From Eubacteriales bacterium (GTDB lineage: Bacteria; Bacillota; Clostridia; Acetivibrionales; JANLFN01): a DNA stretch of 64,000 nt. The position numbers and the translations under genes are program-made. Position 1 is the stretch's first letter; the number at the start of each line of letters is the position of its first letter. Location of the stretch: the NCBI GenBank assembly GCA_024655885.1, contig JANLFN010000001.1, positions 1 to 64,000 of the forward strand, written 5' to 3'. The notes under the pieces are model-generated. The model had not been told where the DNA came from and made no database searches. It worked only from the letters and a program-made list of their open reading frames with translations. Of this stretch, positions 6,160 through 50,010 are shown piece by piece.

Positions 6160-6254
6160 TTCATCCTATCTCTGCATTTATACTATATGTTTATTCAAAA
6201 TTTTTTAATTTAAACCTTTTTAGTAAATAATGTTCCAGTTTAAAAAAAAACAAA

Positions 6255-6283
6255 TTGACAGATAATAAGCCTGCATGTTTTAT
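6255..6283 (+). promoter_or_regulatory. Candidate sigma-A promoter for small membrane protein
   Basis: TTGACA at 6255-6260 and TTTTAT at 6278-6283 are 17 nt apart. The -35 is perfect and the -10 weak. Its position supports the downstream GTG at 6330 as the true start of the next gene. Confidence 0.4.
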
Positions 6284-6329
6284 TTACACTATTTTAGAAG
6301 TATCAGCCCTTAAGAAGGGAGGGATAAAT

Positions 6330-6593
6330 GTGCTGGGATTTATCATTACAATCATTGTAGCAGCATTGGCAGGATGGATAGGAGACGCACTGGTAAAGAA
6401 CGATATGCCCGGGGGCTTTTGGGGAGCACTCCTGGCCGGCCTGGTGGGTTCATGGATCGGTGCGTATATACCCTGGTTCAATAGATTGGGGCCTACAATT
6501 AGTGGAGTAGCCATTATACCCACGATACTTGGAGCGGCAATATTTATATTCATACTTGGACTTTTTAGAAAAACAGCGCACCAAGCCAGGTAA
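6330..6593 (+). CDS. GlsB/YeaQ/YmgE-family small membrane protein
   Basis: An 87-residue protein made of three hydrophobic segments with glycine-rich turns (GWIGD, GGFWGALLAGLVGSWIG, ILGAAIFIFILG), the pattern of the GlsB/YeaQ/YmgE transglycosylase-associated family. Members are stress-linked membrane proteins with no firmly known activity. I chose the GTG at 6330 because AAGGGAGGG lies just upstream (6315-6323). A longer reading from 6255 would start inside the putative -35. A terminator follows at 6634. Confidence 0.8.
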   Translation: MLGFIITIIVAALAGWIGDALVKNDMPGGFWGALLAGLVGSWIGAYIPWFNRLGPTISGVAIIPTILGAAIFIFILGLFRKTAHQAR

Positions 6594-6633
6594 ATAGGAT
6601 CCGGAAAAAATACAGCGAGCAATCACCAAATCA

Positions 6634-6668
6634 CGGCACTTGAATATATTAATAGTGCCGGACCTTTT
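6634..6668 (+). terminator. Rho-independent terminator
   Basis: Arms CGGCACT (6634-6640) and AGTGCCG (6654-6660), then GACC and a run of T. It separates the GlsB-like gene from spoVM. Confidence 0.65.
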
Positions 6669-17253: not shown

Positions 17254-17262
17254 GAGGAAGAT

Positions 17263-18321: not shown

Positions 18322-18357
18322 AAAAATGCAATTTTTAACAAAATATGGGATAAAAAT

Positions 18358-18375
18358 CTGCAGTGAATACTGCAG
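18358..18375. repeat. Perfect hairpin between pilT and pilC
   Basis: CTGCAGT and ACTGCAG form a 7-bp stem with loop GAAT, 36 nt past the pilT stop. There is no T run (CTTAATTTAG follows), so it may be a weak terminator, an RNA-stabilising hairpin or an operator. The next 170 nt are AT-rich and include TATAAT at 18516-18521 just before pilC. No c-di-GMP riboswitch motif was seen. Confidence 0.4.
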
Positions 18376-18546
18376 CTTAATTTAGAATCCTGTTAAATTT
18401 TCATTATATTTAATATATTTTTTTATATTTTATCCCGGAAATATGATAAAATAGCCTTAAACGAATAGAATTTTGAAATATAGAGCAGTAAACTGGGGAT
18501 ATTTGTTTTTTGTTTTATAATGCCTAGTGTTCATGGGGGGAAGAAA

Positions 18547-19764: not shown

Positions 19765-19798
19765 CCAATGTCGACAATTTTTTAAGGGGGAATGGAAA

Positions 19799-20269
19799 AT
19801 GTTCAAATTATGGCACAAAATGAGGAAGAGCAAGGCAGGCTACACCCTGACCGAATTGATCGTGGTTGTAGCCATACTGGGCGTACTGGCGGCCGTTGCG
19901 ACGCCGATAGTAGTAAATCAGGTCGGAAAAGCACGCGACGCTGCAGACGCGGCAAATGCGAGGTCAATAGAGAATGCTATCAAGGTTGCAGTTGTAAATG
20001 GTGATCTTGATACCCAAGAGACATCTGATGGTTCCGGGATATTTCAAATTAAATCAACTGACGTTAGTGAAATAATTACGAATACAAAGGGTATACCCGG
20101 TGATATGATTGCAGAGTCAACATCAGGCAGTACTACAACTTATAAACTTAAAGCATGCCAAGATACGAGCAACTATTTCTTTTTAAACCGTCAAACATAT
20201 GAGGTTAGAGTGGCATCAGAGTCTCCAGATGGTAATAGCAATTCTACTCTCTGGGTTAAATTGAATTAA
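19799..20269 (+). CDS. pilA: Major type IV pilin (PilA-like)
   Basis: A 156-residue prepilin. The 14-residue basic leader ends in Gly14, and cleavage gives a mature protein starting YTLTE, with the conserved Glu5 and a 20-residue hydrophobic helix. The first mature residue is Tyr rather than the usual Phe or Met. The helix continues into NQVGKARDAADAANARSIENA. The C-terminal globular part (about 70-156) has AT-rich codons unlike the 5 prime end, which suggests faster divergence. I start at ATG 19799, after AAGGGGGAA. It lies between pilC and the prepilin peptidase and is the likely main fibre subunit. Confidence 0.88.
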   Translation: MFKLWHKMRKSKAGYTLTELIVVVAILGVLAAVATPIVVNQVGKARDAADAANARSIENAIKVAVVNGDLDTQETSDGSGIFQIKSTDVSEIITNTKGIPGDMIAESTSGSTTTYKLKACQDTSNYFFLNRQTYEVRVASESPDGNSNSTLWVKLN

Positions 20270-20293
20270 ATAAATTATACTTATGATATATTT

Positions 20294-21079
20294 ATGATAT
20301 TTTTGATTTTATGCATGGGCCTCATCATCGGCTCCTTCCTGAACGTATGCATCTACCGCATACCGCTGGGAGAGTCGGTCGTAGAGCCGCCGTCACACTG
20401 CACGAACTGCGGTACGAGGCTGAAGCCTGTTGACCTCGTACCGGTTTTGAGCTTTATGTTTTTGAAAGGCAAGTGCCGCTACTGCGGGGCCAAAGTCTCC
20501 GCCAGATACCCCGCCGTAGAACTGATTACAGCACTTGTTTTTATGCTATTGTTTTCCAGGTATGGACTGACCGTAGACTTCCTGGCAGCCATCTATTTGA
20601 TGTCCATCCTGATAGCGGTTTTTTTTATCGACATGGACCACAAAATCATACCCGATGGTTTGGTTCTGGCCGGATTAGCCGGAGGGGTCCTGCTGACGGC
20701 ATACAATATTTTTAACCGCGTTGGGATTTACGGGGACAGGAACTGGTGGAACCCTCTGCTGGGAGGAGTGGCCGGTTCAGGGTTTTTGTTCCTGGTAGCC
20801 CTCATAGGGGCGCTGGCTTACAAGACCGATGAAGCCATGGGCATGGGGGATGTGAAAATATTTCTTCCCATCGGGATGTTCCTGGGATGGAGAATGACCG
20901 TCATCGCACTGCTCCTCTCCATTTTTGCGGGAGGAATTGCGAGCCTGTTCCTGATCCTTACGCGTAAAAAGGAAAGAAGGGGGACCATCCCTTTCGGGCC
21001 GTTTATAGCGACAGGCACATTTATGGCTTTGATGTGGGGATGGGACCTGCTTGGATGGTATGTTTTCCGATTTTATTGA
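20294..21079 (+). CDS. pilD: Prepilin peptidase PilD
   Basis: A 261-residue membrane aspartyl protease that cleaves prepilin leaders and methylates the new N terminus. Two CxxC pairs in the cytoplasmic loop (CTNC near 37, CRYC near 62) mark the bifunctional type with the methyltransferase domain. The catalytic Asp residues lie in DMDHKIIPDG near 115 and GMGDVKIFLP near 185. About seven membrane segments follow. No clear ribosome binding site precedes the ATG at 20294, which lies 24 nt after the pilin stop. Confidence 0.93.
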   Translation: MIFLILCMGLIIGSFLNVCIYRIPLGESVVEPPSHCTNCGTRLKPVDLVPVLSFMFLKGKCRYCGAKVSARYPAVELITALVFMLLFSRYGLTVDFLAAIYLMSILIAVFFIDMDHKIIPDGLVLAGLAGGVLLTAYNIFNRVGIYGDRNWWNPLLGGVAGSGFLFLVALIGALAYKTDEAMGMGDVKIFLPIGMFLGWRMTVIALLLSIFAGGIASLFLILTRKKERRGTIPFGPFIATGTFMALMWGWDLLGWYVFRFY

Positions 21080-21160
21080 AGTGAAAATAAAAATAGTTTA
21101 CATAAAATAAAAATCAAGTTGGCAGTTCACCGCTCTCAACTAAAGAAATGGAGGTAGCTT

Positions 21161-21427
21161 ATGCCGCAGATTAAAAACTATATGGAAGAGATTGTGTTCA
21201 ACCTTATAAAAGAAGTGCTGGCCGATATAAACGTGTGCACCTGCGAAAAGTGTGTTCTGGACATTGCGGCCGTTGCGCTGAACGACCTGCCGCCCAAGTA
21301 CATAGTAACCGAACGGGGCGAGATCTACTCCAGGATCGAAACGTTGAAGCAGCAGTTCGAGGTGGACGTGATCGCGGCTATAACCAAGGCGGCGGTATTG
21401 GTAAAGAGAAAGCCGAGGCATGAATAA
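21161..21427 (+). CDS. ComFB-family protein
   Basis: An 88-residue protein with the ComFB pattern: N-terminal KNYMEEIVFNLIKEVL, two Cys in CTCEKC (near 27-31), then DIAAVALNDLPPKYIV. ComFB lies in the comF late competence operon of Bacillus. In cyanobacteria, family members have been described as cyclic di-nucleotide receptors affecting pilus motility. ATG 21161 follows GGAGG. Its place between pilD and pilM suggests it tunes the pilus, but that is inference. Confidence 0.8.
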   Translation: MPQIKNYMEEIVFNLIKEVLADINVCTCEKCVLDIAAVALNDLPPKYIVTERGEIYSRIETLKQQFEVDVIAAITKAAVLVKRKPRHE

Positions 21428-21505
21428 AGGCCGGACTGAAGCCGCCTGCAAATATTTTCAGGAAATCCGGCTGTGTTCTGAAAAAATGTGTTTTGGAGGA
21501 ATGCG

Positions 21506-22642
21506 ATGTTTGGGAACCAGTACCTGGCCGTGGATATAGGAAACAGGAACATAAAGGCTGTCCACGGGGGAGTGAGCAACAAAAAGATTGAGATAAAAGA
21601 ATATGGAATTTTTGACACGCCGGCAAACTCCATCAGGGACGGAAAGATTACCAACGTAAGCGCCGTAGCCGATTCAATAAGGATGTTTGTTGAGAAGAAC
21701 CGCATCAAGGCAAAGAAGCTCATTCTCAATGTCACGGGCACAGGCGTCATTACCAGGGATATCCTGCTTCCCCAATCCAATGAAGACGAAGTGGAAAAAA
21801 TGCTTGAGTATGAGGCACAGCAGTATTTCCCCGTGGATCTGAAAAACTATGTCCTTGATTTTAAGCTTATGGAAGATATAACCAGTGACGAAGGCCGCTT
21901 CACCAGGGTCCTCTTGGTTGCCGTTCCGGTAAAGCAGGTGGATGAGTATATGAAACTGCCCGGGCTGATGAAAATGGAGCCTGCGGCTGTTGACATTCCC
22001 GCCAATTGCATTTCCAAGCTTGTTTCTTATCTTGACTTCCATTTAACGGATGAAACGGCGGCCGAATATGCCGTTGTGGACATAGGCTGCGAGACGGTGG
22101 GGGTTTCTATTTTTAACCGGAACGTATTGAAGTTCAACCGCATTTTACTAAACGGAAGCGGGGACATAGACCGGCTGATCTCTGAAAATTATTCCATGAG
22201 CCCGGCGGAGGCGGAAAAAAAGAAAATAGCTTCCGCCCTTGTCGTCCCGGAGGAATCCGACGGCAGCCTTTCAATCGAAGATGCACGAATGAGCAACATA
22301 GTCAAACCTGCGGTGGACGCTGTCATCAGCGACATAAACAGGTTTTTCGATTTTTATCTTTCACGGAGCACCGGCAACAAAATCGGAAGGATTTATTTAT
22401 GCGGGGGTGGGAGCCGGCTGAAGGGACTGCCGGAGTATATATCCGCTTATTTCAACATTCCTGTGGAGTTTTTGACGCCTGGCTCCAATATTGTCTACAG
22501 GGGGAGCAAAGGACAGGAGGCCTTCCTCAATGACTATGTGCTCATCACGGGCGCTGTTGGGGCAACCGTCAGGAACGGAAGTGCCGGCAGGGGAATTTCC
22601 GGTGTTCTAAAAGACCTCTTGAAGCCGGGAAAGCCATTATAA
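21506..22642 (+). CDS. pilM: Type IV pilus assembly protein PilM
   Basis: A 378-residue cytoplasmic actin-fold protein that binds the PilN N terminus. AVDIGNRNIKAVHG opens the ATP site, VDIGCETVGVSIF is the second phosphate loop and LCGGGSRLKGLPEY the adenosine loop. It is a homologue of FtsA and of the long FtsA-like protein at 3230, but of normal length. ATG 21506 lies 5 nt after GGAGGAA; a GTG at 21488 would overlap that site. It leads into the minor pilin, pilN and pilO genes. Confidence 0.93.
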   Translation: MFGNQYLAVDIGNRNIKAVHGGVSNKKIEIKEYGIFDTPANSIRDGKITNVSAVADSIRMFVEKNRIKAKKLILNVTGTGVITRDILLPQSNEDEVEKMLEYEAQQYFPVDLKNYVLDFKLMEDITSDEGRFTRVLLVAVPVKQVDEYMKLPGLMKMEPAAVDIPANCISKLVSYLDFHLTDETAAEYAVVDIGCETVGVSIFNRNVLKFNRILLNGSGDIDRLISENYSMSPAEAEKKKIASALVVPEESDGSLSIEDARMSNIVKPAVDAVISDINRFFDFYLSRSTGNKIGRIYLCGGGSRLKGLPEYISAYFNIPVEFLTPGSNIVYRGSKGQEAFLNDYVLITGAVGATVRNGSAGRGISGVLKDLLKPGKPL

Positions 22643-22655
22643 GGAGAGACAGGAT

Positions 22656-23189
22656 ATGGCACAGGGAGGACAAAAGGGGATCACTCTGACCGAGCTGCTG
22701 GTGACCGTTGCCATCCTGATGGTGGTGATGCTCCCCATATCCATGGTCCTGCTCCAGGGGGATAAAAACTACAGGATTGAGAAAGATACCTCGGATTCGC
22801 AAAGGGCTGTAAGAGAAGCCATGGACTTGATCATGGAGGACTTGAGGCAAAACGACAGCAGCAGTATAAGTGTGTACAAGAATAACAACAGTTCCGACGC
22901 AGCAATCCCTGCCTTAGGGGCCCCTCAAAACAGCGGGGATGTACTTTACGGGGATGTGCTTTATATAAAGCCGGACATCATATACTTCTTAGGGAAGGAC
23001 GGACTGTATAAAAATGATGGAACCAGCAGCAATTTGGCTGTTATAGGTATCACAGGTTTTACCGTTTCAAAAAGATTATCGGACAGTAATACTGTAAGCA
23101 CCATAATCGATATTGACTTGTATGCAAAAAAAAGCCCCAAGGACAGAGGAATTAATTTGAAAAGCAGCTACCGGATCAAATCCAATTAA
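22656..23189 (+). CDS. Minor prepilin (PulJ/PilW-like)
   Basis: A 177-residue prepilin-like protein. The seven-residue leader ends in Gly8, and cleavage gives ITLTELLVTVAIL with Glu5. The hydrophobic helix runs into QGDKNYRIEKDTSDSQRAVREAMDLIMEDLRQ, the motif of PulJ/PilW-type minor pilins. The remainder is a small beta-rich domain. It overlaps nothing and follows pilM by 13 nt. It is probably a tip or priming subunit. Confidence 0.82.
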   Translation: MAQGGQKGITLTELLVTVAILMVVMLPISMVLLQGDKNYRIEKDTSDSQRAVREAMDLIMEDLRQNDSSSISVYKNNNSSDAAIPALGAPQNSGDVLYGDVLYIKPDIIYFLGKDGLYKNDGTSSNLAVIGITGFTVSKRLSDSNTVSTIIDIDLYAKKSPKDRGINLKSSYRIKSN

Positions 23190-23241
23190 AACCGGTTATA
23201 GATGCAATAATGATTCAGACCAATATGAGGGTGGGACAACA

Positions 23242-23814
23242 TTGAAGGATCTAAACCTGATACCGAAAAGCTATATCCTGGAAAAAAAGAAGGCCGCTAA
23301 AAGGGTGTATATGGCTGTGGGAGCTGCGGCTGCTTGCGTGCTGCTGCTTGTGATGATAGGGGGACCCCTGGGCCTCAAATACAGCCTTAAAGCGCAGCGC
23401 GACAGCCTTGAAGCGAAGATCATGGCAACGGACAACTACGTTGCCATGGAAAACCAGTTCAACAGGATCAATAACATGTACAAGATGAGGGAAGAGGAAG
23501 GGAAGAAGCTGTCCCGGTATGGAATAGACGTTCCTGCCATCATTGACAGCATTGAAAAGGCGACCCCCGAAAAGCTTTTTTTTACGAATTTGAGCGTTAG
23601 GACGGACAATAACGGATCGGTTTTAGTTACTCTTACGGGGATTTCCTCTTCCATGGAAGATATTGCGTCTTTTGTAAACAAAATAAGGACAGACGGCTGC
23701 TTCGGGAGTGTGACGATTGGCGCGGTCAATAAAGAAGCGGCTGCGTCGGCACAATATGATTTCAATATAAGCATGAGCGGTTACCGGAAAAAGGATGGGG
23801 CAAAGCAAAACTGA
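23242..23814 (+). CDS. pilN: Type IV pilus alignment protein PilN
   Basis: A 190-residue bitopic membrane protein. The N terminus KDLNLIPKSYI is the PilM-binding motif (consensus xxINLLP). A hydrophobic segment covers about 22-42, then a coiled coil and a ferredoxin-like periplasmic domain (about 90-180). The start is TTG 23242, preceded by GAGGGTGGG. It lies directly upstream of pilO, as in most pilus clusters. Confidence 0.88.
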   Translation: MKDLNLIPKSYILEKKKAAKRVYMAVGAAAACVLLLVMIGGPLGLKYSLKAQRDSLEAKIMATDNYVAMENQFNRINNMYKMREEEGKKLSRYGIDVPAIIDSIEKATPEKLFFTNLSVRTDNNGSVLVTLTGISSSMEDIASFVNKIRTDGCFGSVTIGAVNKEAAASAQYDFNISMSGYRKKDGAKQN

Positions 23815-23855
23815 AATTTTACGGACACTAAAACATACTGGCAGGGAGTGATGGC

Positions 23856-25202
23856 GTGAAGCTAACAACCAGGGAAATAAGACTGATGGCTTTATTAGGG
23901 GTTCTCCTGCTTCTGGCCGCATATGTAAACCTGTTTCTAAAGCCGCAGCTTGCGGCCATAAGTAAACTCAGGGAAGAAATAAGCAAAGACAGGGACAGCT
24001 ACAACCTGAACCTGAGCGTAAAGGAAAAAGTGAAAAACATGGGCACGGATGTAAAAATCCTGATGCAAAAGCTGAAGGATTTAAGGACTGTTTTCCCTCC
24101 CGTTGTCAACTACGACGAAATTCTTCTGGTGGTCCGGGATCAGGCGAAGCGTGCGGGCCTTCAAATAGAAAGCTTAAATTTTACCGATGCGGTGGAGGCG
24201 GGAAGTGCCGCTTCCTCCAACAAGAACAATGAAGCGGTTGCCGCGGGGAAACAAAACGGAACTGCCTCCGGCAATGTACAAATTACCGACGATTCACTGA
24301 AAAAGGCGCTGGCAAACCTGGGTATGGGGGATGGGAACAGCCTTGACGGCAGTAAGACAGGACAGGGTAAAGCCCTGATCCCCGACGGGAAAGGGTATTC
24401 CGTGAGCATCAAGGTGAATGCCAAGGGGACAAACAGCCAGGTGAAGGCGTTTATTAACAATATCCTGGGCTTGAAAAACAAGATGGCTTTTAAGGATGTC
24501 CAGATCAGCAACAGTGGAGGCGGACAGCTGACCGCCAATATGACGCTGGAAATGTACGGGATCATGGACAGGAACGCCGAGGAGTATACCATGCTGTATG
24601 ACAGCTCCCTGGCGCCCCCCGCCCCTGAAGGGAAGGAAAACGTGTTCAGCCCCTTTGAAGGGTTTGTGGGACAGATAAGCTCCCCCGGGGGAAGCGGGGA
24701 TGCCGTTTCCCGGGAAGAGACGGATACGGGCAAACCTCTTTCCCTGGAGGAGCTTCAAGCCTATGACTTCTCCCTCGGTGCGCTGCCCTATGGAGAGAGC
24801 CTGGCCCCTCCGAGCGTTTCCATTACGGCAAAACATCTGGCGGCAGGCGATGGCACGTTCCGCATACCCATCATATACGGCGACAGCAAAGGCGAGGAGA
24901 AGGCGGAAATATACGTGGAGGAGAAGGATGGCAGGTTTTACTGCAAATACAAGACCGGGAATGAGGCTTTCCCCGATCCGGCGTATAAGCAGCTTGCCGA
25001 GTTTAAGCCTGCGGGGGATGAGATACAAATGATTGTGAACTCTACCCCAAGGAAGTTCAATGAAGACAAGAATTCGGTAAGTATAGGCATCATCAACAAG
25101 ACCTCTAAGGCTTTTATTGTAAGGGTGGTTGACGAGGACAAGTCCCAGCCCAGGGTAAAAATAGACAAAACAGAGGGAGACGTAAAGGTAGAGTATAAAT
25201 AA
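23856..25202 (+). CDS. pilO: PilO-like pilus alignment protein with long C-terminal extension
   Basis: A 448-residue protein. Residues 1-240 match PilO: membrane anchor (about 8-28), coiled coil, and a ferredoxin-like domain (VFPPVVNYDEILLVVRDQAKRAG to NMTLEMYGI). PilO is normally about 200 residues. Here another 200 residues (about 245-448) follow: a Pro/Gly-rich linker and a beta-rich domain ending DVKVEYK, which I do not recognise. GTG 23856 follows GGGAGTGATG. The extra domain may contact minor pilins or the cell wall. Confidence 0.8.
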   Translation: MKLTTREIRLMALLGVLLLLAAYVNLFLKPQLAAISKLREEISKDRDSYNLNLSVKEKVKNMGTDVKILMQKLKDLRTVFPPVVNYDEILLVVRDQAKRAGLQIESLNFTDAVEAGSAASSNKNNEAVAAGKQNGTASGNVQITDDSLKKALANLGMGDGNSLDGSKTGQGKALIPDGKGYSVSIKVNAKGTNSQVKAFINNILGLKNKMAFKDVQISNSGGGQLTANMTLEMYGIMDRNAEEYTMLYDSSLAPPAPEGKENVFSPFEGFVGQISSPGGSGDAVSREETDTGKPLSLEELQAYDFSLGALPYGESLAPPSVSITAKHLAAGDGTFRIPIIYGDSKGEEKAEIYVEEKDGRFYCKYKTGNEAFPDPAYKQLAEFKPAGDEIQMIVNSTPRKFNEDKNSVSIGIINKTSKAFIVRVVDEDKSQPRVKIDKTEGDVKVEYK

Positions 25203-25216
25203 GCTCGGATGACGAC

Positions 25217-26143
25217 ATGGAAAAGTATAGTAGCCATAGGGAGGCATATAGGAGAATATTGAAGGGCAATCAGGGGGTAACACTGGTAGAACTGCTGGTC
25301 TCCATTGCGATACTGGCTTTAGTGGTCGCACCCTTTTTAGGCAGCTTCCTTTCAGCGGAAAGAAACAATCAGCTTTCAAAGGACAGGCTCACTGCAGCGG
25401 CCGCAGCCCAGAAGGCCATGGAAAAGATCAAGGCAACCCCTTCCCTGGTGGATGAAGCGGTTAATCAGACTGTAAACCTGAAAAGTTATGTGCCCGACGG
25501 TTTTTTCCCGGAAGGTTATGAAGTGAATTACAGCGTCACGGAGGTTTCCCAGGGGATAAGCACGGGTGACCCGGCTTACACTTTTCAAAATCTGGAGGAT
25601 ATACCCGATAATATTGTGCTTACCATTGATAAAAAAGAGAATGAGGATGATCAATACGCTGTTTCGGGGAAATTTTATTACGGGGACAAACAATATAAGA
25701 GCACAAACATTGATATGGGTGAAGATGCGGAGGATAACCGCTTCACACTCACAATTAACAAAAATGGTGGGGACTATGATTGTGATTTTTTTAAAACTCA
25801 AGGGGAAGCTGGGAATAAAAATACGGTTATAGCGAACCCAGAGGGCAAATATGCAAAGATCTTTGCCGTCAAAGTGGTCTTTAAGCAGGAGGCTTCACCG
25901 GGCCTGACGCTGGCTGTGAAGGTGGATAGCGGGGTGGACAAGGATGTGTGTTTTTATATTGCCGGAGACAGTGTGTCCTCTCCAAAGCTGACACTGGTCA
26001 ATGACAACGGAGAGGACTTTTATACTTATTACAACATCAGTACAAATTCGGTGGATACAGGAACCGGGGTGTACCGGATTGAGGTGCGCGTGACAAAAAA
26101 CGGAGAGCCGGTGGATAGCCTGGTCTCCTATGTGAACAGGTAG
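25217..26143 (+). CDS. Minor prepilin (PilV/PulI-like) with large globular domain
   Basis: A 308-residue prepilin-like protein. A leader of about 20 residues ends in NQG, and cleavage gives VTLVELLVSIAILALVVAPFL with Glu5. SAERNNQLSKDRLTAAAAAQKAMEKIK follows, typical of PilV/PulI. The C-terminal half (about 150-308) is beta-rich, with two segments resembling a small jelly-roll (FTLTINKNGGDYDC; YRIEVRVTKNGE). It starts 14 nt after pilO and ends 12 nt before the PilX-like gene. Confidence 0.8.
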   Translation: MEKYSSHREAYRRILKGNQGVTLVELLVSIAILALVVAPFLGSFLSAERNNQLSKDRLTAAAAAQKAMEKIKATPSLVDEAVNQTVNLKSYVPDGFFPEGYEVNYSVTEVSQGISTGDPAYTFQNLEDIPDNIVLTIDKKENEDDQYAVSGKFYYGDKQYKSTNIDMGEDAEDNRFTLTINKNGGDYDCDFFKTQGEAGNKNTVIANPEGKYAKIFAVKVVFKQEASPGLTLAVKVDSGVDKDVCFYIAGDSVSSPKLTLVNDNGEDFYTYYNISTNSVDTGTGVYRIEVRVTKNGEPVDSLVSYVNR

Positions 26144-26155
26144 CAGGTGGGTTTT

Positions 26156-28705
26156 ATGCAGCAGCGGTTGTTAAAATCAAACAGGGGTTCATCTTTGGTA
26201 ATGGTCATGCTGATCATCACCATCATGACGACGGTGGGGATGGCTATTATGCTGCTTACTTGGAGTGAATTCAGGATGAGCCTTCTGTCCAGCGACCGGA
26301 ATAAGGCTTACTATATTGCGGAAGCGGGCGTGGAGAGGGTTGCGAAGGCCCTGGACGACAAGGTGGCTGAAATACAGGAAGCAGCCAGGGAGGCTGTGTC
26401 CGATTATATCATGAAAAAAATTCAAGCCAGGAGTGAGGACAGGAACGCTGATGAGAATGGGGACGGGGAGAACTGGTTCAATAAGGACGGCTCCCTGAAC
26501 AATGCGTATGTGCAGAAAAGATTCAATGAACTTTATATGGCATCCGATCCGGATACTGAAAACGGAGAGCCGGAGTCTTTTGTCTTTTTACTTAAAAAGG
26601 CTTTTTTACAAACCGATGATATCAACCAGCTCCTGACAGGCGAAGACCTGACCGTCAAGGATGATACGGGAATGAAAGTCATTGGAAGCTTCCAGTGGAA
26701 ACTGAAGGAGTTTACTGAAGAAACTAATAACAATAACGGTGAACCTGCCTATATGGCCACCGTAGAAGTAGCAGGGACCTACGGGGGGCATTACAAAAAA
26801 ACCCTGACGGTCAAATTCAACCTGCTGCCCGTGACTTCCCAGACTCCCTACCAGGTGATGGAAAAGGCCGTGGTAAAAAATCCGGTCATCCCTCCTCTTC
26901 TGACAAAGGCTGTGGCGGCGGAAAAAAATATCGTTTCAGCAGGAGGCACTGTCTCCATCGGGGGGGATGTGACCTGCTTCGGGACCCTGCCCCTAAAGGA
27001 CGGCAGCGAGGACATGGACGCACCCATGTCCATGTACGGAGGGATTGTGGCAGGGATCAAGAGGGAGGCTATAACCTATACCAATGAAGCAGGCAGTACG
27101 GTGACCACCTCCCAAAAGGAGTGCTTGGGAATTAACAATGACAGTGTCCCGGCAGGAAGCGCAGGAAGTTTTGTCATCGACGGCAGTGCTTCCACCATGG
27201 GGTACGTACAGACCATGTACGGAGATGACGAAAGCGGCAAGCATTCGGATATTACGGTCAATAGAGAGACCTTTGCCCGGTCAGTGAGGGCGGATGATGA
27301 GTCGTATTCCTCCAGCATCAGCCTGAAGGGGGATGTGTATACCACCGACAATGTCCAGATCGATTCCAGCAATTCGGAAGTGACGGTGGGCAGCGATAGC
27401 AGGCCCGCCAATTATTACGGCTTTGTGGATGCGGGCTATGAAACCCTGGACTATGATGAAAAATCCGAATGGCAGGAAAAAAGGACCAGCAGCATTGTTG
27501 TGAACGGAAATTCAAAGCTTAATCTCTACGGGCCGGTTTATATCGGGGGCAGCACCTTTCTTACGGATTATAGGAAAGATGCGGCAGGTCCTGACGACCC
27601 TGAGGCCGGACATCCCTATATGACCGGGCTGGCTGCGGCAAAATCCGGCAAGAACGTGGCGTATGCCTTTACCGAATATAAAAAAGGCAGCACAACCGGG
27701 AAAAACAATCTTTACTATTATGACAGTTCGACGAGCTACCCTTACATTAGTTCGACAAACTCTGACATTATTTACAATTCCTACAGTGGGATCAATATGA
27801 TTGTGGGGACGCTGACCCAAAAATTTGGAATGCAGCAGCGAGGAGTCCATGTAAAAGGCATTTGGAACCAGTGGAAGACTGAATGGGAGCAGAATTCCCA
27901 ATCGGAAGGATTTGTTGATAACATGAGCAACATTACAACCGATAATATTAGAATCCTGGGGACGGGCGTCTATGATGAAAACAGGCTGATCGGCTATTCC
28001 AACGGGGCTATTGCCGCCAACGGCAAGGTTTACGGACCCTATGACGTTGTCTATAAAGATATTAAAGATAATTCCTTGAAGAGATATGCACCCGATGAAT
28101 GGAAAGCCATCAAGGATGACTGTATGGTGCGATACTTCAATGCGGTAAAAGGGTTGATTCCGCCCAAGGATTCCTATGAAACCTTTTATGAAAACGTTAA
28201 AGCGGAGAGTATGGAAGACAGTTTGATGAATACCGATACCGGAGCTCCGGACAGTGCATTCAGCGAAATTAACGCTCCTGCCGATAGCCCTGCGGGCCGG
28301 TATTTCTTTTTTCATTCAACAGGGGATGTCACTATCAAGTACTCGGGAGGCACATGGGAGATTAACGGTATGCCTTTTCCGGCAAGCTGTAAGGACACGT
28401 ATGGATATTATTACGGGCTTATCTACACCGGGGGGAACATATATGTGGACAGTACGAATGCACCGCCAGGCGGGTTCAAGCTCAAGGGTTCCCTCCTGGC
28501 GTCGGGAAATGTTGTATTTATCGGCGATGCCTACATAGGGTACAGTGAAGACGTTGTCAAAAACCTTATAACCAACTCTGCAACCGCCGACTTTTTCAAG
28601 GACACCACCTATATCACCCCCGCGTATGCTTCGGGGGACAAGCTGCAGAGCCAGCGCGTCCAGGTTAGAAACATCCAGGTGGCTGACTGGAAGGAAACGA
28701 AATGA
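26156..28705 (+). CDS. Very large PilX-like minor pilin / surface protein
   Basis: An 849-residue protein. The N terminus has the PilX signature: basic leader, SSLVMVMLIITIMTTVGMAI helix, then RNKAYYIAEAGVERVAKALD. PilX homologues are usually about 200 residues; here about 600 more follow. That part has repeated short strands such as GGTVSIGGDV, SSISLKGDVYTTDNV, NGNSKLNLYGPVYIGG and GGNIYVDSTN, which suggest a beta-helix or bactofilin-like solenoid. No prepilin-type Glu5 motif is clear. Start ATG 26156 is favoured over GTG 26147, which overlaps CAGGTGGG. It lies directly before the CBM3 protein, where PilY1-type tip adhesins follow PilX in other systems. Confidence 0.78.
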   Translation: MQQRLLKSNRGSSLVMVMLIITIMTTVGMAIMLLTWSEFRMSLLSSDRNKAYYIAEAGVERVAKALDDKVAEIQEAAREAVSDYIMKKIQARSEDRNADENGDGENWFNKDGSLNNAYVQKRFNELYMASDPDTENGEPESFVFLLKKAFLQTDDINQLLTGEDLTVKDDTGMKVIGSFQWKLKEFTEETNNNNGEPAYMATVEVAGTYGGHYKKTLTVKFNLLPVTSQTPYQVMEKAVVKNPVIPPLLTKAVAAEKNIVSAGGTVSIGGDVTCFGTLPLKDGSEDMDAPMSMYGGIVAGIKREAITYTNEAGSTVTTSQKECLGINNDSVPAGSAGSFVIDGSASTMGYVQTMYGDDESGKHSDITVNRETFARSVRADDESYSSSISLKGDVYTTDNVQIDSSNSEVTVGSDSRPANYYGFVDAGYETLDYDEKSEWQEKRTSSIVVNGNSKLNLYGPVYIGGSTFLTDYRKDAAGPDDPEAGHPYMTGLAAAKSGKNVAYAFTEYKKGSTTGKNNLYYYDSSTSYPYISSTNSDIIYNSYSGINMIVGTLTQKFGMQQRGVHVKGIWNQWKTEWEQNSQSEGFVDNMSNITTDNIRILGTGVYDENRLIGYSNGAIAANGKVYGPYDVVYKDIKDNSLKRYAPDEWKAIKDDCMVRYFNAVKGLIPPKDSYETFYENVKAESMEDSLMNTDTGAPDSAFSEINAPADSPAGRYFFFHSTGDVTIKYSGGTWEINGMPFPASCKDTYGYYYGLIYTGGNIYVDSTNAPPGGFKLKGSLLASGNVVFIGDAYIGYSEDVVKNLITNSATADFFKDTTYITPAYASGDKLQSQRVQVRNIQVADWKETK

Positions 28706-28771
28706 GGGATAAGCCGTTGAGGGCGTGAACTGCCCGGGAGATATTGATTTATTGCGCAAGGAGGTATCCAA

Positions 28772-31700
28772 ATGACTCATAGGTTTAAAGGTATAGTTTC
28801 ATTACTGCTGACGGTTGCATTTATTACATCCAACTTGGCCTTTACTTTTCTAAGGGATGCATTTGCCGGCAGCAGCGATCAGGTGGAGCTTTACATGTAT
28901 AACGGCGACAGGTCGGACTGGACCGACGTGATGACGCCCCGCTTCAAGCTGGTAAACAAGGGAGGGGATTTGAACCTTTCCAGGGTCAAGATCAGGTATT
29001 ATTACAAATCCATTTGGGAACTGCCCAATACCTTTGAATGCGAGAAAATCTCCGTAACCAACGGGACTACCAAGGATTTATCCACTTCCACAGTCACGGC
29101 CCAATTTACACGTGTGTCCAATGCACTGCTGAGTAATTACTATTACTGCGAGCTGTCTTTTTCCCCGGAAGCAGGTACACTGAGCCGGGACGGCTATGTG
29201 GTGGTCCAGGCAAGAATGAAGCACCGCAGGAGTTGCGTTTACCTTTACCAGAGGGATGATTATTCCTTCAATTCAGTGGCGACGGACTTTGTGAAATGGG
29301 ACAAGGCTACAGCCTATCTTACCTCCGGAAGTAGCTACAGTATTATCTGGGGAAGAGAGCCCGACGGGACCACCGTCCTGCCATTGCCTGAGCAGAAATC
29401 CCTGAAAGTGCAGATGTACAACGTGGACAGGAGTTCCTGGGTTACCGTTGAAAATCCCAAAATAAGGATTATTAATACAGGAACCAAAGATATTCCGCTG
29501 TCCGAAATTACTGTAAGATATTTCTTTACAACTGTATTCAGCAGGAGTTTTAGCTGCAGCAGCGCCGTGCTGACCAATGGTACTGCCTCAACCTCGCTGG
29601 ATACTTCTCATGTGACGGGTACCTTTGAAAGGATCAACAATGGTTTTATTTTAGATGATTACCAGTTGAAAATCGGCTTCAGCAGCACGTCGGCCGGCCT
29701 GAGCCTTAAGCCGGGAGGATATGTGGAACTGCAGTCCGTTATTCGGTTTACCTCGTGGCCGTTCAAAGAATATCAGCCGAATGACTATTCCTTCAATTCC
29801 AGCGCAACAGGTTATGTGGACTGGAAAAAGACCACCGGCTACATTAATAACGTGCTTATGTGGGGAACAGAACCCGACGGGACAGAGGCCCCGACGGTGC
29901 CCGTACCGGACAAGCCTCTAAACCTTACTGCGGTCCCCGGTGACACCAGTGTCTCCCTTACCTGGTCGCCCTCATTTGGAGCCCAAACCTATACGGTGAA
30001 AAGGAGCACCACAAAAGGCGGGCCTTATACTGCCTGCGGAGGATTGCTGGATACTACCTATACCGACACAGGACTGACCAACGGCGTCACTTACTATTAT
30101 GTAGTGAGTGCATCCAGTGCGGGGGGGGAAAGTGCCAATTCCAGTGAAGTGAGCGTTATGCCCACAAGCAACAAAATAAAGATCATGACCTACAGCATGG
30201 ACCCTTCAGAAAATGTGGATGTCATAAAAACCGGGGTAAGAATAGAGAATACGGGCTTAAATCCAATCGACTTGAGCCGTATTACGGCAAATTACTATTA
30301 TACGCAGAATGGAGGAGATATCCAAAAGAGCACATTCCGAACCAAAGCCGCAGTTAAGAATTCTTATACGGGTGATAATCGATTTGATACAACGCCAATA
30401 AATACTTCTTATGTAACCTCTAAAATTGAAAATTTTGCACCCAAGGCATACAAAACGGACGCCTACTTCCAGATAGGCTTCCAAAGCTCGGCAGGCACAC
30501 TTACACCCGGCAGCAGCGTGGTCCTTGAAATAGAGTTTGAGAAAGACAAAAACGGTCAAGGAAACGCTATGTTCAACCAGCCAGATGACTATTCCTTCAA
30601 CAGCAGCACATCCGGCTATACCGATTGGATGTATATGACCGGGTACATTGACGGCAAGCTGGTATGGGGGATGGAACCGGGGGCTGTTCCGGTGCCGACA
30701 GTCACACTGACTTCTCCCAAAAATGGAGACACCTATGCAGTCAATTCCGTCATACCTATAAAAGCCGACGGCACATACTGCGACCACATGGCCGCAGTGG
30801 TCCTTGACAGCAAGCAAACTGAAATCCAGCTTCCTTCAAGCGAAGGCAACAATCCGGTACAGCAGGGGAACCGCTTTTCGTATAATTTCACTCCGACAGC
30901 GCCCGGAACATATACCATTTATGTAGTAGGCAGGAGCACACCTGATGAATCTCCCAATTCTGTGAAAGGAATGTCGGACCCGGTGACCATATCGGTGACA
31001 GCAGCGTCCCTGGCTGCGCCTGTGGATGTAGCGGCTGCACTGGGAGACGGGCAGGTGAGCCTCAAATGGTCGCCGGTAGCGGGGGCGCTGTCCTACAAAG
31101 TAAAAAGAGCAGAAATCCGCGGAGGCCCTTACACGGAAATCGCTTCAAGTGTCACAAATACGTCTTATGTGGATGCAGCAGTAGAGCCGGGCAAAACCTA
31201 TTATTATGTTGTCAGCGCTGTAAATGAAATAGCTGAAAGCCCTAATTCCCCCGAGGCAGCCGCAGGCCCCGTGTATGAAAACGTCTTCTACACCGATGAC
31301 GGGAGCTTTTCCTACAGGCTTTTGACAGGCAGTAACGACGACAATTACAACAAGATTGTGCTGGGGGAATATATCCCCCTGGAGATGAGCCTGAAGCTGA
31401 AAAAGGCCATCGTTGACCCTGTATTTACCTTTGATGAAAATATACGGCCTGAGAAGGGGGGCCCGGACACCGGCTTTACTGTGAACAAAATTGCTGCGGG
31501 GGATCACTTCCTGGATTATTTACAGGTTTATAAAAACGGGAACAGGATGACGGAGGATTTAATCCAGGAGATGGACACGGCTTCCACCAGAATGAGCTTC
31601 CGGATCAAGGGCAGCTTTAGTGTGGGTGACACCCTCAAGATCAACTGTATTGTCAAGATAGCCTCCAAGTGCAAGAATCTGACCTTTGATAAGGAAAACC

Positions 31701-31813
31701 AGGTGCTGTTCTGCATGGAGAGCTGGCAATATAGCGAAGGGGGAGAGAAAATAGGCTCCTCCGATTGGTTCAGGGTGGACGTGATTATTGAAAAGCCCAA
31801 TATCATGCAGTAG
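28772..31813 (+). CDS. Secreted multi-CBM3/FnIII surface protein, candidate pilus-linked cellulose adhesin
   Basis: A 1013-residue secreted protein. A Sec signal ends near AFA (30-32). In order come CBM3 (about 37-205), CBM3 (210-372), FnIII (379-463), CBM3 (468-640), an Ig-like domain (642-745), FnIII (747-833) and a C-terminal domain of unknown type (834-1013). The CBM3 repeats show the family pattern: PRFKLVNKGG or similar, RYYY, then DDYSFNSxAT and WGxEPDG. There is no catalytic domain, dockerin, cohesin, LPXTG or SLH motif, so it binds but does not cut, and how it is held on the cell is unclear. It is the last gene of the pilus cluster, 66 nt after the PilX-like gene and just before a terminator. 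I infer an adhesin that works with the pilus on cellulose. ATG 28772 follows AAGGAGG. Confidence 0.85.
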   Translation: MTHRFKGIVSLLLTVAFITSNLAFTFLRDAFAGSSDQVELYMYNGDRSDWTDVMTPRFKLVNKGGDLNLSRVKIRYYYKSIWELPNTFECEKISVTNGTTKDLSTSTVTAQFTRVSNALLSNYYYCELSFSPEAGTLSRDGYVVVQARMKHRRSCVYLYQRDDYSFNSVATDFVKWDKATAYLTSGSSYSIIWGREPDGTTVLPLPEQKSLKVQMYNVDRSSWVTVENPKIRIINTGTKDIPLSEITVRYFFTTVFSRSFSCSSAVLTNGTASTSLDTSHVTGTFERINNGFILDDYQLKIGFSSTSAGLSLKPGGYVELQSVIRFTSWPFKEYQPNDYSFNSSATGYVDWKKTTGYINNVLMWGTEPDGTEAPTVPVPDKPLNLTAVPGDTSVSLTWSPSFGAQTYTVKRSTTKGGPYTACGGLLDTTYTDTGLTNGVTYYYVVSASSAGGESANSSEVSVMPTSNKIKIMTYSMDPSENVDVIKTGVRIENTGLNPIDLSRITANYYYTQNGGDIQKSTFRTKAAVKNSYTGDNRFDTTPINTSYVTSKIENFAPKAYKTDAYFQIGFQSSAGTLTPGSSVVLEIEFEKDKNGQGNAMFNQPDDYSFNSSTSGYTDWMYMTGYIDGKLVWGMEPGAVPVPTVTLTSPKNGDTYAVNSVIPIKADGTYCDHMAAVVLDSKQTEIQLPSSEGNNPVQQGNRFSYNFTPTAPGTYTIYVVGRSTPDESPNSVKGMSDPVTISVTAASLAAPVDVAAALGDGQVSLKWSPVAGALSYKVKRAEIRGGPYTEIASSVTNTSYVDAAVEPGKTYYYVVSAVNEIAESPNSPEAAAGPVYENVFYTDDGSFSYRLLTGSNDDNYNKIVLGEYIPLEMSLKLKKAIVDPVFTFDENIRPEKGGPDTGFTVNKIAAGDHFLDYLQVYKNGNRMTEDLIQEMDTASTRMSFRIKGSFSVGDTLKINCIVKIASKCKNLTFDKENQVLFCMESWQYSEGGEKIGSSDWFRVDVIIEKPNIMQ

Positions 31814-46124: not shown

Positions 46125-46568
46125 TTGTTGGGCTTTTTAAATGATATGTTACTCAATAAAACCGTGGTTGTGCCTGCTCTGTCGTTTTTAATCGCACAGA
46201 CACTGAAGGTTTTGACAGTGATTGCTTTTCAGAAAAAATTCGACTTCAGGAGGTTTATCGGTTCAGGAGGAATGCCAAGTTCCCACTCGGCTTTTATTGT
46301 TTCCCTTGCTACGGTGGTAGGAAAGACTTACGGCTTGAAATCAGGACTTTTCGGAGTCTCCATGGCGGTAGCCATTATAGTGATGTATGATGCGGCCGGG
46401 GTTAGAAGAGCGGCCGGAAAGCAGGCCAAGGTATTGAATAAGCTTATTTGTTCCATGGATGATAAAACCCGGTTTGATGAAAATTTAAAGGAATTGATCG
46501 GCCACACACCTTTTGAAGTACTGATAGGGGCTATTCTTGGAGTTGCGGTAGGGCTGCTGTTCAGCTGA
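46125..46568 (+). CDS. Divergent PAP2/DUF212 (YuiD-type) membrane protein
   Basis: A 147-residue membrane protein with about four hydrophobic segments. The phosphatase-like motif GSGGMPSSHSAFIVSLATVVG (near 46-66) and YDAAGVRRAAGKQA are diagnostic of the DUF212/YuiD group, which is distantly related to acid phosphatases of the PAP2 type. The usual first PAP2 Lys-Arg motif is absent, so activity is uncertain. TTG 46125 lies 10 nt after ispA and about 200 nt before the OLE RNA; it may act on isoprenoid phosphates. Confidence 0.85.
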   Translation: MLGFLNDMLLNKTVVVPALSFLIAQTLKVLTVIAFQKKFDFRRFIGSGGMPSSHSAFIVSLATVVGKTYGLKSGLFGVSMAVAIIVMYDAAGVRRAAGKQAKVLNKLICSMDDKTRFDENLKELIGHTPFEVLIGAILGVAVGLLFS

Positions 46569-46741: not shown

Positions 46742-46770
46742 TATTTAACGAATTCAATAACGTATATAAC

Positions 46771-47402
46771 CGGGGTGGTACAGTATTCTAGTCAGGACTC
46801 CCGATTCTGAAGACGGGCCTAAAAATCCGTTTAAGGGCACAACGATGAAGTTCCTTGTGCCGGCTTGCTACGCCCAGTGGTGGGCTGGTGCTGGGAGTTA
46901 AGGTTTAGGGGCGATCTGCAATGGCATGCAGGCGTTGACCCCTCTACCGTGGAGACCCTTCCTTGTGGAAGAAAAGCCGGCGGTAAAACGCAGGAAAAAC
47001 CGGGAGATAAAAAGCCCGGGAAGAGTCCCGCGTTGCATGCCGACACATCTCGACTACGAGAAGGGATTAAACCTGTTACGCGGTACCGCAAGATGCTGTG
47101 GACAGAGTAGCCTGCCTTGAGTGAAATGGGTGGATAGCGGATCAGATGTATGGGTATTTGGCCAATATACATACATTATTGCTGCTTGAAACCTCTTTTG
47201 CAAAAGAGGCTAGGAATCGGCCAGCCTGTTGAGGAAAACTCCTAGACTGTTCTTATTGGAAATATATTGGGGATTACAGTGTGGACTAAGTGGTAATCAG
47301 GCCCCGGCAGTGGTAACACTCCGGCGGAAGATTTAAAGGGAAACCGCTGGTATGGCGACATGTCAGTATTTTCCGGGGAAATCCTGCCTGACCTAAGCCG
47401 CA
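46771..47402 (+). ncRNA. ole: OLE RNA (ornate, large, extremophilic noncoding RNA)
   Basis: A roughly 630-nt GC-rich, hairpin-dense stretch that does not code. It lies between ispA/yuiD and oapA-dxs, the setting known for OLE RNA, and has its usual length of about 600 nt. Visible helices include GGCACAA/TTGTGCC (46836-46842/46855-46861), GCCCA/TGGGC (46872-46876/46881-46885), CTGCA/TGCAG (46916-46920/46927-46931), CTTCC/GGAAG (46958-46962/46967-46971), CCTCTT/AAGAGG (47192-47197/47204-47209) and CTAGGA/TCCTAG (47210-47215/47240-47245). The ends may close through GTCAGG/CCTGAC (46792-46797/47387-47392). OLE RNA forms a membrane-bound complex with OapA and is linked to ethanol, cold and Mg2+ tolerance in Bacillus halodurans. 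Exact ends are estimates; no terminator follows, so it may be processed from a longer transcript. Confidence 0.88.
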
Positions 47403-47452
47403 AAATTTACTCAATGTGTTGCCACCCGGTTTTATTTATAAGGTGAATTTTA

Positions 47453-47479
47453 ATACTCGACGGCATTTTAGCCGGGTAT
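47453..47479 (+). promoter_or_regulatory. Hairpin just upstream of oapA ribosome binding site
   Basis: ATACT (47453-47457) with GGTAT (47475-47479) and CGGC (47461-47464) with GCCG (47471-47474) form a bulged stem with a 6-nt loop. It ends 9 nt before the GGAGG of oapA. There is no T run. It may affect OapA translation or mark the RNA 3 prime processing site. Confidence 0.4.
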
Positions 47480-47503
47480 AATTAAAATGGAGGTTTCAAC
47501 AGC

Positions 47504-48133
47504 TTGGGAGCAGACGGTAAACACCCTTATGACGAAAAAAAAGTGAAATTCAGGGTGAATATGCTTGGCTCACAAAAAAATAACACTAAATGGATCATTA
47601 CTATAACTACGGTTTCGTTTTTGCTTTCCGCTTCACTGTCATTTGCCTCGTCCAATGCATTGAAAAATGTCAATAATGTTTTTGCCTTGCTAATCGTGTT
47701 AGTCATCATCTTTATTGGAATAATATTCGATATGGTGGGAATAGCTGTGACTGCAGCCGATGAAGCCCCTTTTCATGCCATGGCGTCCAGAAAGATGTAT
47801 GGAGCAAAACAGGCCATCAAGCTCATCAGAAACGCAAACAAGGTGTCCAGTTTTTGCAACGATGTGGTTGGCGACATCGCAGGAGTCATCAGCGGTACGG
47901 CGAGTGCCATTATAATAGTAAAGATTACCGGCAGCAGCAGCGGGGAAATAACCCTGGCCGGGCTGGCTATTACTGCGCTGGTTGCTTCTATTACGGTGGG
48001 TGGAAAAGCCCTGGGAAAGACCATTGCAATACATAACAGCAATTACATAACCTATAGAGTGGGTGTAATGGTAAGTTTTTTTACAGGAAAGATACCCTGG
48101 ATAAGGCTAAAAAGGAATAACAAAAAAATCTGA
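47504..48133 (+). CDS. oapA: OLE-associated membrane protein OapA
   Basis: A 209-residue integral membrane protein with four predicted membrane segments (about 31-50, 58-82, 121-142, 149-172) and basic ends (WIRLKRNNKKI), suited to RNA binding. It contains the DxxxD motif Asp120-Val-Val-Gly-Asp124; as I recall, the matching Asp pair in Bacillus halodurans OapA is where mutations disturb Mg2+ tolerance. The start is TTG 47504, 10 nt after GGAGG (47489-47493); a shorter start at ATG 47561 would also keep the membrane segments. It lies directly after the OLE RNA and 17 nt before dxs. Confidence 0.9.
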   Translation: MGADGKHPYDEKKVKFRVNMLGSQKNNTKWIITITTVSFLLSASLSFASSNALKNVNNVFALLIVLVIIFIGIIFDMVGIAVTAADEAPFHAMASRKMYGAKQAIKLIRNANKVSSFCNDVVGDIAGVISGTASAIIIVKITGSSSGEITLAGLAITALVASITVGGKALGKTIAIHNSNYITYRVGVMVSFFTGKIPWIRLKRNNKKI

Positions 48134-48150: not shown

Positions 48151-50010
48151 GTGAGTAAAATATTAAAGGGAATAAACTCACCAGAAGATATAAAAAAATT
48201 GAATATACCGCAAATTGAAGAACTGTGCGGGGAAATAAGGGAGTTTTTGATAGAAAAGGTGTCAAAAACCGGGGGACATCTTGCATCCAACCTTGGTGTG
48301 GTTGAATTGACCCTGTCGCTGCATACGGTTTTTGACAGTCCGAAGGACAAAATTATCTGGGATGTGGGACACCAGTCCTATGTACATAAGATCATTACAG
48401 GAAGGAAGGACCAGTTCGACTATTTAAGACAGTTGAACGGCATTTCCGGGTTCCCCAAGAGCAAGGAGTGCATCCATGACTGTTTCGATACAGGGCACAG
48501 CAGCACATCCATTTCAGCTGCACTGGGGCTTGCCCGTGCCAGGGACATTAAGAAAGAAAAATTTTATGTGGTCGCGGTCATAGGGGACGGAGCCCTTACG
48601 GGAGGAATGGCCTTTGAGGCGTTGAATGATGCTGGAAGGTCAAACAACAGCCTCATTGTCGTACTTAACGACAATGAAATGTCCATTTCAAAGAATGTGG
48701 GGGGACTGTCCAAGTATTTAAGCAGAATAAGAACCCAGCCTTTTTACTACAAGGTGAAGGAAGACCTGGATGCTATACTCAATAAAATACCGGCGCTGGG
48801 AAAAACCACGGTAAAAGTGTTAGGCAGGGCAAAAGACATCATAAAATACATTGTCATGCCCAACATATTGTTTGAAGAGCTGGGCTTTAAATACCTGGGC
48901 CCCATAGACGGCCATAATGTGGAAGAATTGAACAACGTTTTTGAAAGGGCAAAGACGTTAAAAGGTCCTGTGCTGGTTCATGTCTGCACTCAAAAGGGAA
49001 AAGGATACCCCTATGCGGAAAAAAGCCCTCACAAATTCCACGGAATTTCGCCCTTTGAGGTGGAAACAGGAGAAATAAAAGAAGATAACGGCCCGGTGTT
49101 TTCCGACCTTTTCGGCAAGACAATGGTGGAGATCGCCGAACAGGACAGCTCTGTAGTCGCTGTGACGGCTGCGATGCCTCACGGGACAGGACTGGCGCCT
49201 TTTTCAAAAAGATTCGCAGACAGGTTTTATGATGTGGGTATCGCGGAGCAGCACGCCGTCACTTTTTCGGCGGGCCTGGCCAAAGGAGGACTTAAACCGG
49301 TATTTGCGGTTTATTCCTCTTTCCTGCAAAGGGCATATGACCAGATCATACACGATGTGGCGCTGCAAAACCTGCATGTGGTATTTGCAATTGACAGGGC
49401 CGGGATCGTGGGAGAAGACGGTGAAACCCACCAGGGGATCTATGATCTTTCATACCTCAGGCACATACCGAACATGGCGGTCATGAGTCCCTGCGATTAC
49501 AGCGAGTTTGAAGGAATGCTGAAGTTTGCGCTGCAGGAATATGAAAGGCCTGTGGCCCTCCGGTATCCCAGGGGCAAGGGCCCTGAAAAATTGGCTGAAA
49601 CCGCTCCCATAAAGCTTGGAAGAGGTGTTTCTATCAGGGAAGGAAGAGACCTGACAATAGTCGCATTGGGCCTTATGGTGGAAACTGCTTTAAAGGTGGC
49701 CGATATGCTTGCAGAGGTGGGGATCGAGGCGGAGGTGATCAACGCCAGGTTTGTGAAGCCCCTGGATGAAAAGCTGATCATCCAGTCGGCCTTTAAAACC
49801 GGTAAGGTGGTAACCCTGGAGGACAACACGGTGGTTGGGGGTTTTGGAAGCTGCATATTGGAAGCACTGAACAGGAACAACATCCATGCAAAATTGAAAA
49901 TTATCGGGTTCCCGGATGAGTTTATTCCCCATGGCTCAAGAAGTGACCTGATGAAGTTGTTTAAGCTGGACGCGGAATCGATTTTTTCAGAGGTAATGCG
50001 AATACTATAA
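48151..50010 (+). CDS. dxs: 1-deoxy-D-xylulose-5-phosphate synthase
   Basis: A 619-residue thiamine-diphosphate enzyme, first step of the MEP isoprenoid pathway (pyruvate plus glyceraldehyde 3-phosphate). GDGALTGGMAFEALNDAG and NDNEMSIS bind ThDP-Mg; GIAEQHAVTFSAGLA carries the cofactor-activating Glu; GEDGETHQG is typical of DXS. GTG 48151 has GAGGGATGA upstream. It continues the OLE-oapA unit and is followed by tlyA. Confidence 0.96.
   Translation: MSKILKGINSPEDIKKLNIPQIEELCGEIREFLIEKVSKTGGHLASNLGVVELTLSLHTVFDSPKDKIIWDVGHQSYVHKIITGRKDQFDYLRQLNGISGFPKSKECIHDCFDTGHSSTSISAALGLARARDIKKEKFYVVAVIGDGALTGGMAFEALNDAGRSNNSLIVVLNDNEMSISKNVGGLSKYLSRIRTQPFYYKVKEDLDAILNKIPALGKTTVKVLGRAKDIIKYIVMPNILFEELGFKYLGPIDGHNVEELNNVFERAKTLKGPVLVHVCTQKGKGYPYAEKSPHKFHGISPFEVETGEIKEDNGPVFSDLFGKTMVEIAEQDSSVVAVTAAMPHGTGLAPFSKRFADRFYDVGIAEQHAVTFSAGLAKGGLKPVFAVYSSFLQRAYDQIIHDVALQNLHVVFAIDRAGIVGEDGETHQGIYDLSYLRHIPNMAVMSPCDYSEFEGMLKFALQEYERPVALRYPRGKGPEKLAETAPIKLGRGVSIREGRDLTIVALGLMVETALKVADMLAEVGIEAEVINARFVKPLDEKLIIQSAFKTGKVVTLEDNTVVGGFGSCILEALNRNNIHAKLKIIGFPDEFIPHGSRSDLMKLFKLDAESIFSEVMRIL

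Follow-up and report, generated by a model that had tools for sequence, protein, structure and literature searches.

A full-length OLE RNA gene with a long P7 arm between yuiD and oapA

Among conserved bacterial RNAs whose biochemical role has yet to be settled, OLE RNAs are some of the largest, and complete examples are therefore of help. They have been catalogued in 2,822 Bacillota genomes (PMC11332333), and the same report describes a full-length type (Fernando and Breaker 2024) and two variants that are commonest in the TANB77 and RF39 clades. Variant 1 is described there as having a shortened P7-P9 region and often no OapB site, and variant 2 as being devoid of P7 and P8. Cryo-EM of the OLE RNAs of two Clostridium species has revealed a dimer joined by the A-rich P4 loops, by P5/P6 kissing loops and by a palindromic P9 loop (PMC12286853; PMC12265935). 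Binding regions have been reported for OapB in P12.2/P13 (PMC12265935), for OapC at a kink turn (PMC9723947) and for the ribosomal protein bS21 in P6 (PMC12054373). GOLLD and ROOL RNAs, which occur in bacteria and phages, are likewise described as noncoding RNAs of large size and ornate structure that assemble into homo-oligomers (PMC12286853). The transporter MpfA has been reported to be anticorrelated with OLE.

Here, we describe the OLE RNA gene found in a 64-kb stretch of DNA that was analysed as a whole and is referred to as the window. With the full-length type it shares the covariance model, the helices, the loops, the oapA-dxs neighbourhood and the partner proteins. It differs from a typical full-length OLE in a P7 arm of 108 nt and in an extent from P1 strand to P1 strand of 660 nt (46770-47429), as compared to medians of 43 and 597 nt among 215 OLE sequences. 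Membership in either variant was considered and rejected, as P7 is lengthened rather than shortened or absent, P8 (30 nt) and P9 are of normal size and the OapB region is present. The window OLE is thus a complete and ordinary copy, one further example of a class known from thousands of genomes. It comes from a genome with the genes of all four partners in which no MpfA was found.

Family membership and secondary structure

A scan of the whole window against Rfam 15 matched the OLE family RF01071 (gathering score 50) at 46759-47441 on the forward strand, with 547.2 bits, an E-value of 1.1e-157 and all 616 model positions (1-616) covered. No other Rfam family, GOLLD and ROOL included, reached its threshold within the 64 kb, and a search of the genome found a single ole copy. 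An earlier note, made from the sequence alone, had proposed a probable OLE RNA and named this covariance model as the check and another large RNA class as the alternative; its proposal is confirmed by the match over the full model, by synteny, by the partner genes and by the dimer-contact loops. The interval that it gave, 46771-47402, lies inside the OLE match, starts within P1 and misses the 3' P1 strand (47422-47429), which is cut off by the end at 47402. Its description of a noncoding, hairpin-dense stretch agrees with the long gap between yuiD and oapA and with a structure beyond chance: the minimum free energy of 46770-47429 was -248.7 kcal/mol as compared to -214.6 (sd 6.0) for dinucleotide shuffles (z -5.7), none of 20 of which was as low. 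In the unconstrained minimum free energy fold of the same stretch, P1, P2, P3 and most of the Rfam arms could be recognized by eye. The features of the locus are listed in Table 1.

Table 1. Genes and RNA elements of the OLE locus, in positions of the window
Feature	Position	Strand	Basis
yuiD (divergent PAP2 family), upstream	46125..46568	+	Pfam PF02681 (DUF212), 5.2e-48
ole, OLE RNA gene	46759..47441	+	Rfam RF01071 full-length match
P1 5' strand, one bulged G	46770..46778	+	pairs with 47422-47429
P2 5' strand	46780..46791 (46780-46784 and 46788-46791, three-base bulge)	+	complementary to 47242-47250
P3 5' strand	46801..46808	+	covaries with 47213-47220
P4 hairpin, A-rich loop (published dimer contact)	46812..46831	+	Rfam pairs
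P5 arm; loop core GCCCA at 46872-46876 (published kissing loop)	46857..46891	+	Rfam, covariation
P6 arm; loop GGC at 46923-46925, complementary to P5 loop GCC	46904..46947	+	Rfam, covariation
Enlarged P7 arm	46955..47066	+	Rfam alignment, fold; at the tip 7 Rfam positions replaced by 73 nt
P8 arm, 30 nt	47074..47103	+	Rfam, alignment
P9 arm, 75 nt; loop palindrome GGCC at 47160-47163 (published symmetric kissing loop)	47124..47198	+	Rfam, alignment
P3 3' strand	47213..47220	+	covariation
Hairpin, probably P10 of the published numbering (own assignment)	47226..47241	+	Rfam, alignment
P2 3' strand	47242..47250	+	complementarity
11-bp 3'-domain helix, 5' strand	47261..47271	+	pairs with 47410-47420
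Partner strand of 47386-47391	47297..47302	+	pairs with 47386-47391
Stem; GNRA-capped hairpin 47338-47345 and hairpin 47348-47365; probably P12.2 and P13 (own assignment), for which OapB binding has been published	47325..47375	+	Rfam, covariation
11-bp 3'-domain helix, 3' strand	47410..47420	+	complementarity
P1 3' strand	47422..47429	+	covariation, complementarity
oapA (OLE-associated protein A), probable TTG start after GGAGG (by eye)	47504..48133	+	sub-cut-off Pfam CNNM, E 1.8e-4
dxs, downstream	48151..50010	+	TIGR00204, 1.5e-248

The comparison rests on 215 distinct OLE sequences aligned with MAFFT, which uses no covariance model, and covariation was scored as a home-made, APC-corrected mutual information in place of R-scape. 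Loose matches to two anchor motifs were required of every row; loci that did not contain both anchors or were cut by an edge (15 in number) were omitted, 12 duplicates were merged, and seven further loci were left out, namely a second copy of the window OLE (L001) and six loci of the genome itself (L150-L155). Of the rows, 106 had been picked by an exact 21-base pattern over 46775-46795 from at least 119 matching stretches, so that invariance in this region is partly built in, and counts were redone on the 109 sequences outside the pattern-chosen set (the 109-sequence subset).

The RNA is closed by P1, P2 and P3, of which P1 and P3 are backed by covariation. In P1, the pairs 46774-47426 and 46773-47427 covary in the full alignment and the segment 46773-46778 with 47422-47427 is paired in 621 of 654 cells of the 109-sequence subset, while conservation does not extend to the outermost pairs in the register that was examined. 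P2 is complementary in 976 of 978 cells of the subset and hardly covaries because its columns are nearly invariant, and P3 is paired in 809 of 869. The Rfam consensus line leaves all three helices unpaired; their names follow published usage (PMC12265935) and their fit to these coordinates is our own assignment. The 3' domain contains a further helix of 11 bp (47261-47271 with 47410-47420), paired in 1163 of 1195 cells of the subset.

A long-range closing pair between 46792-46797 and 47387-47392, put forward in the earlier note, did not hold: as written only two of its six places pair in the window, the register being off by one base. The complementary register, 46791-46796 with 47387-47392, was rejected as well, as its pairs 4 and 6 form in only 63 of 215 and 21 of 168 sequences, respectively, and 486 of 651 cells are paired in the 109-sequence subset. 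Complementarity is frequent at its remaining pairs and complete (215 of 215 sequences) at the first two, yet the columns concerned hardly vary. The 3' strand is instead accounted for by a helix of 47386-47391 with 47297-47302, which is paired in 649 of 654 cells of the subset and covaries at four of six pairs. The 215-sequence comparison thus allows the extra helix to be dropped.

It has been proposed that P3 spans the membrane, in part because the helix is of sufficient length (PMC12265935). Its 5' strand measures 12-13 nt in 211 of the 215 sequences, with a mean identity of 0.44 and a length sd of 1.30. The 5' strand of the 11-bp helix is 11 nt long in 205 of the 215, with an identity of 0.50 and a length sd of 0.31. 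P3 is therefore not alone in combining a constant length with a free sequence, and as the 3'-domain helix is about as constant or more so, constant length is by itself no evidence for a membrane crossing.

In sequence, the window OLE has canonical loops at the dimer contacts L4, L5/L6 and L9, and each of the four arms carries the loop form that is commonest among the 215 sequences. The P4 loop CTAAAAAT is identical in 190 of them and the P5 loop core GCCCA is found in 204, while the P6 loop AATGGCAT occurs in 161 and the GGCC of the P9 loop in 164. The region near P5, where the OapC kink turn has been placed, is conserved in the Rfam alignment. Within the putative OapB region, positions 47338-47345 form a two-pair hairpin with a GAAA loop that is unpaired in the Rfam consensus. 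Its outer pair covaries and is paired in 211 of 214 sequences (as G-C, A-U or C-G), and the hairpin is probably P12.2 of the published OapB site.

The enlarged P7 arm

The long P7 is the sole unusual trait of the window OLE and lies in an arm that is known to vary. The P7 segment 46955-47069 measures 115 nt against a median of 50 nt, and three of the 215 sequences, the window included, have at least 115 nt; within the 109-sequence subset the median is 64 nt and two sequences reach 115 nt. The rank depends on the stretch that is measured, as six of 193 sequences are at or above the window length when half of P6 and half of P8 are added to P7. All these lengths were read from the alignment (for example, 43 nt for L028). 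Folded separately, 46952-47067 gave -44.7 kcal/mol (z -4.7) in the form of one extended, irregular stem.

P7 was also the most variable of all stretches measured (sd 25.5 nt). As it is in addition shortened or absent in the published variants, drift in length is the simplest reading of the long arm. A trait of the window's own family was considered and rejected, since the one same-family relative (L002) has 67 nt. Seven other sequences have at least 95 nt, and five of these (L143, L147, L174, L181 and L183) come from f8, a different family of the same order. The longest P7 segment among the 215, at 285 nt, was found in L031, where the OLE match at 3875-4719 spans 845 nt.

It is also conceivable, albeit unlikely, that the P7 extension is an accessory domain, for instance one at which an additional protein docks onto the OLE dimer. 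P7 lies outside the published dimer contacts and would therefore be free to gain such a role. The base of P7 looks alike in the window, in the same-family relative and in the five f8 relatives, and the rest of the arm differs in length; a constant base with a variable remainder would fit a fixed platform that carries a variable module.

Gene neighbourhood, partner proteins and mode of action

The gene order xseA-xseB-ispA-yuiD upstream and oapA-dxs-tlyA-nadK-argR-recN downstream of ole, in which ispA encodes farnesyl diphosphate synthase and an ORF with RecF/RecN/SMC domains was taken as recN, fits the OLE cluster described in PMC12265935. The location between ispA/yuiD and oapA-dxs had been recognized in the earlier note, and Pfam and NCBIfam matches bear it out. 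For OapA, CNNM was the only Pfam match at E-values up to 0.001. The protein is thus weakly similar to the MpfA/CNNM transporters, from which it differs in having neither a CBS nor a CorC domain, and the weak match fits the distant relation between OapA and MpfA reported in PMC11332333. OLE loci for which 900 nt or more of downstream sequence were available numbered 137, counted with duplicates kept and with an OapA match accepted anywhere in the locus; a homologue of OapA was present in 131 of them, and its median distance to the 3' anchor was 113 nt. No OapA match was present in L005, L020, L021, L052, L061 and L111 despite at least 900 nt of downstream sequence. The OapA match of L087 seems to be located on the opposite side of ole.

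Upstream of ole, a consensus scan of the forward strand found no sigma-70-type promoter. An extended -10-like element, TGCTATAAT, can be made out by eye near 46732. Between the OLE 3' end and oapA (47441-47500), a hairpin that is not followed by a U tract is visible by eye, and a promoter and terminator scan found neither on the forward strand.

Genes for all four partners, OapA, OapB, OapC and bS21, are encoded in the genome. OapB was assigned to a 95-codon ORF beside infA, with an ORF that reads as map as its other neighbour, which matched the solved OapB structure 7k9b (2.4e-11) ahead of archaeal L14e (6e-6). A genome search with the KOW model PF00467, intended for OapB, returned only an L24-reading ORF of 116 aa and a second KOW protein, a 179-aa frame that is probably NusG. 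OapC was assigned to an 80-codon ORF of the L7Ae type between rpoC-reading and rpsL-reading ORFs, the best match of which was the solved YbxF. The genome encodes a second L7Ae protein, and for the L7Ae protein and bS21 any OLE-specific roles would be inseparable from general ones by sequence alone. A CNNM search of the genome found OapA, below the cut-off, as its sole match and no MpfA-type transporter, while 12 of 14 control genomes were positive. This absence of an MpfA-type CNNM match fits the reported anticorrelation between MpfA and OLE, which is a tendency rather than a strict rule.

In the explanation that we favour, two copies of the OLE RNA most likely pair with each other through their P4, P5/P6 and P9 loops, OapA would hold the RNA at the cell membrane, and OapB, OapC and bS21 would help it to fold, as described in published work on other species. 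The resulting complex would probably adjust the handling of divalent metals (Mg2+) and growth under stress, and may thereby do part of the work that MpfA-type transporters perform in species without OLE. By analogy with those other species, the window OLE would be transcribed, form dimers, be placed at the membrane and function in its host organism. We consider it almost certain that 46759-47441 is a full-length OLE RNA gene, the product of which is a trans-acting structural RNA.

The position of ole upstream of oapA and in the same direction would also suit a cis-acting leader of an oapA-dxs mRNA from which no free RNA is made, and the cluster of H. halodurans has been reported to be transcribed as one polycistronic RNA (PMC12265935). 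The same report describes OLE in another species as abundant and part of a membrane complex, and the locus L087, with its OapA match apparently on the other side of ole, would not conform to a leader arrangement; we regard this reading as very unlikely, while effects in cis may exist besides the free RNA. A decayed copy that is non-functional and merely kept as sequence could explain the expanded P7 tip, and is made highly improbable by a score of 547.2 bits that ranks 13th among the 53 OLE genomes of the order, by the intact contact loops and conserved positions and by the presence of oapA and the other partner genes.

A protein-coding region can be practically dismissed. Three ORFs of at least 60 codons (81, 64 and 113 codons) exist in the stretch, and 13 of 43 relatives have some open frame across the region of the 64-codon ORF. 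Against this, none of the three has a Pfam match, the two that were scanned have no NCBIfam match, and an open frame across the regions of the 81- and 113-codon ORFs is seen in no more than 1 and 6 of the 43 relatives, respectively, when the best of three frames is taken and relatives are those of 49 order-level loci with a row of their own. The sequence variation, moreover, follows the base pairs. The view of the earlier note that the small ORFs are no genes is thereby upheld. The full-length, trans-acting OLE RNA remains the preferred reading.

Distribution and other features of the window

OLE was present in both genomes of the family (the window's own included), in 53 of the 58 order genomes searched and in 164 of 393 genomes sampled from the class, the latter being a drawn sample that includes the order genomes and of whose further matches 60 were retrieved. 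A mobile origin of the window OLE was considered and rejected, as no phage record matched and the one matching plasmid record carries the OLE of another species. This record, the 504-kb replicon pMM59_01 of Pusillibacter faecalis (L250, NZ_AP023421.1), has a full-model OLE match of 399.8 bits at 5979-6643, followed by genes annotated as CNNM-domain protein, dxs, TlyA family, NAD kinase, argR and recN. It is recorded as a plasmid and typed as conjugative, and may be a chromosome-like second replicon.

The earlier characterization of the host as spore-forming and cellulose-associated is in agreement with the presence of spoIIIAA, spoIIIAE, spoIIIAH, spoIVB, spo0A and a CBM3 protein in the window. 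The stretch 15553-31813 contains a type IV pilus-like cluster with two T2SSE ATPases, T2SSF and a PilX-type protein at 26147-28705. Directly after the pilus-like genes, at 28772-31813, lies a protein of 1013 codons with CBM3 cellulose-binding and fn3 domains, an arrangement that suggests a cellulose-binding, pilus-associated adhesin.
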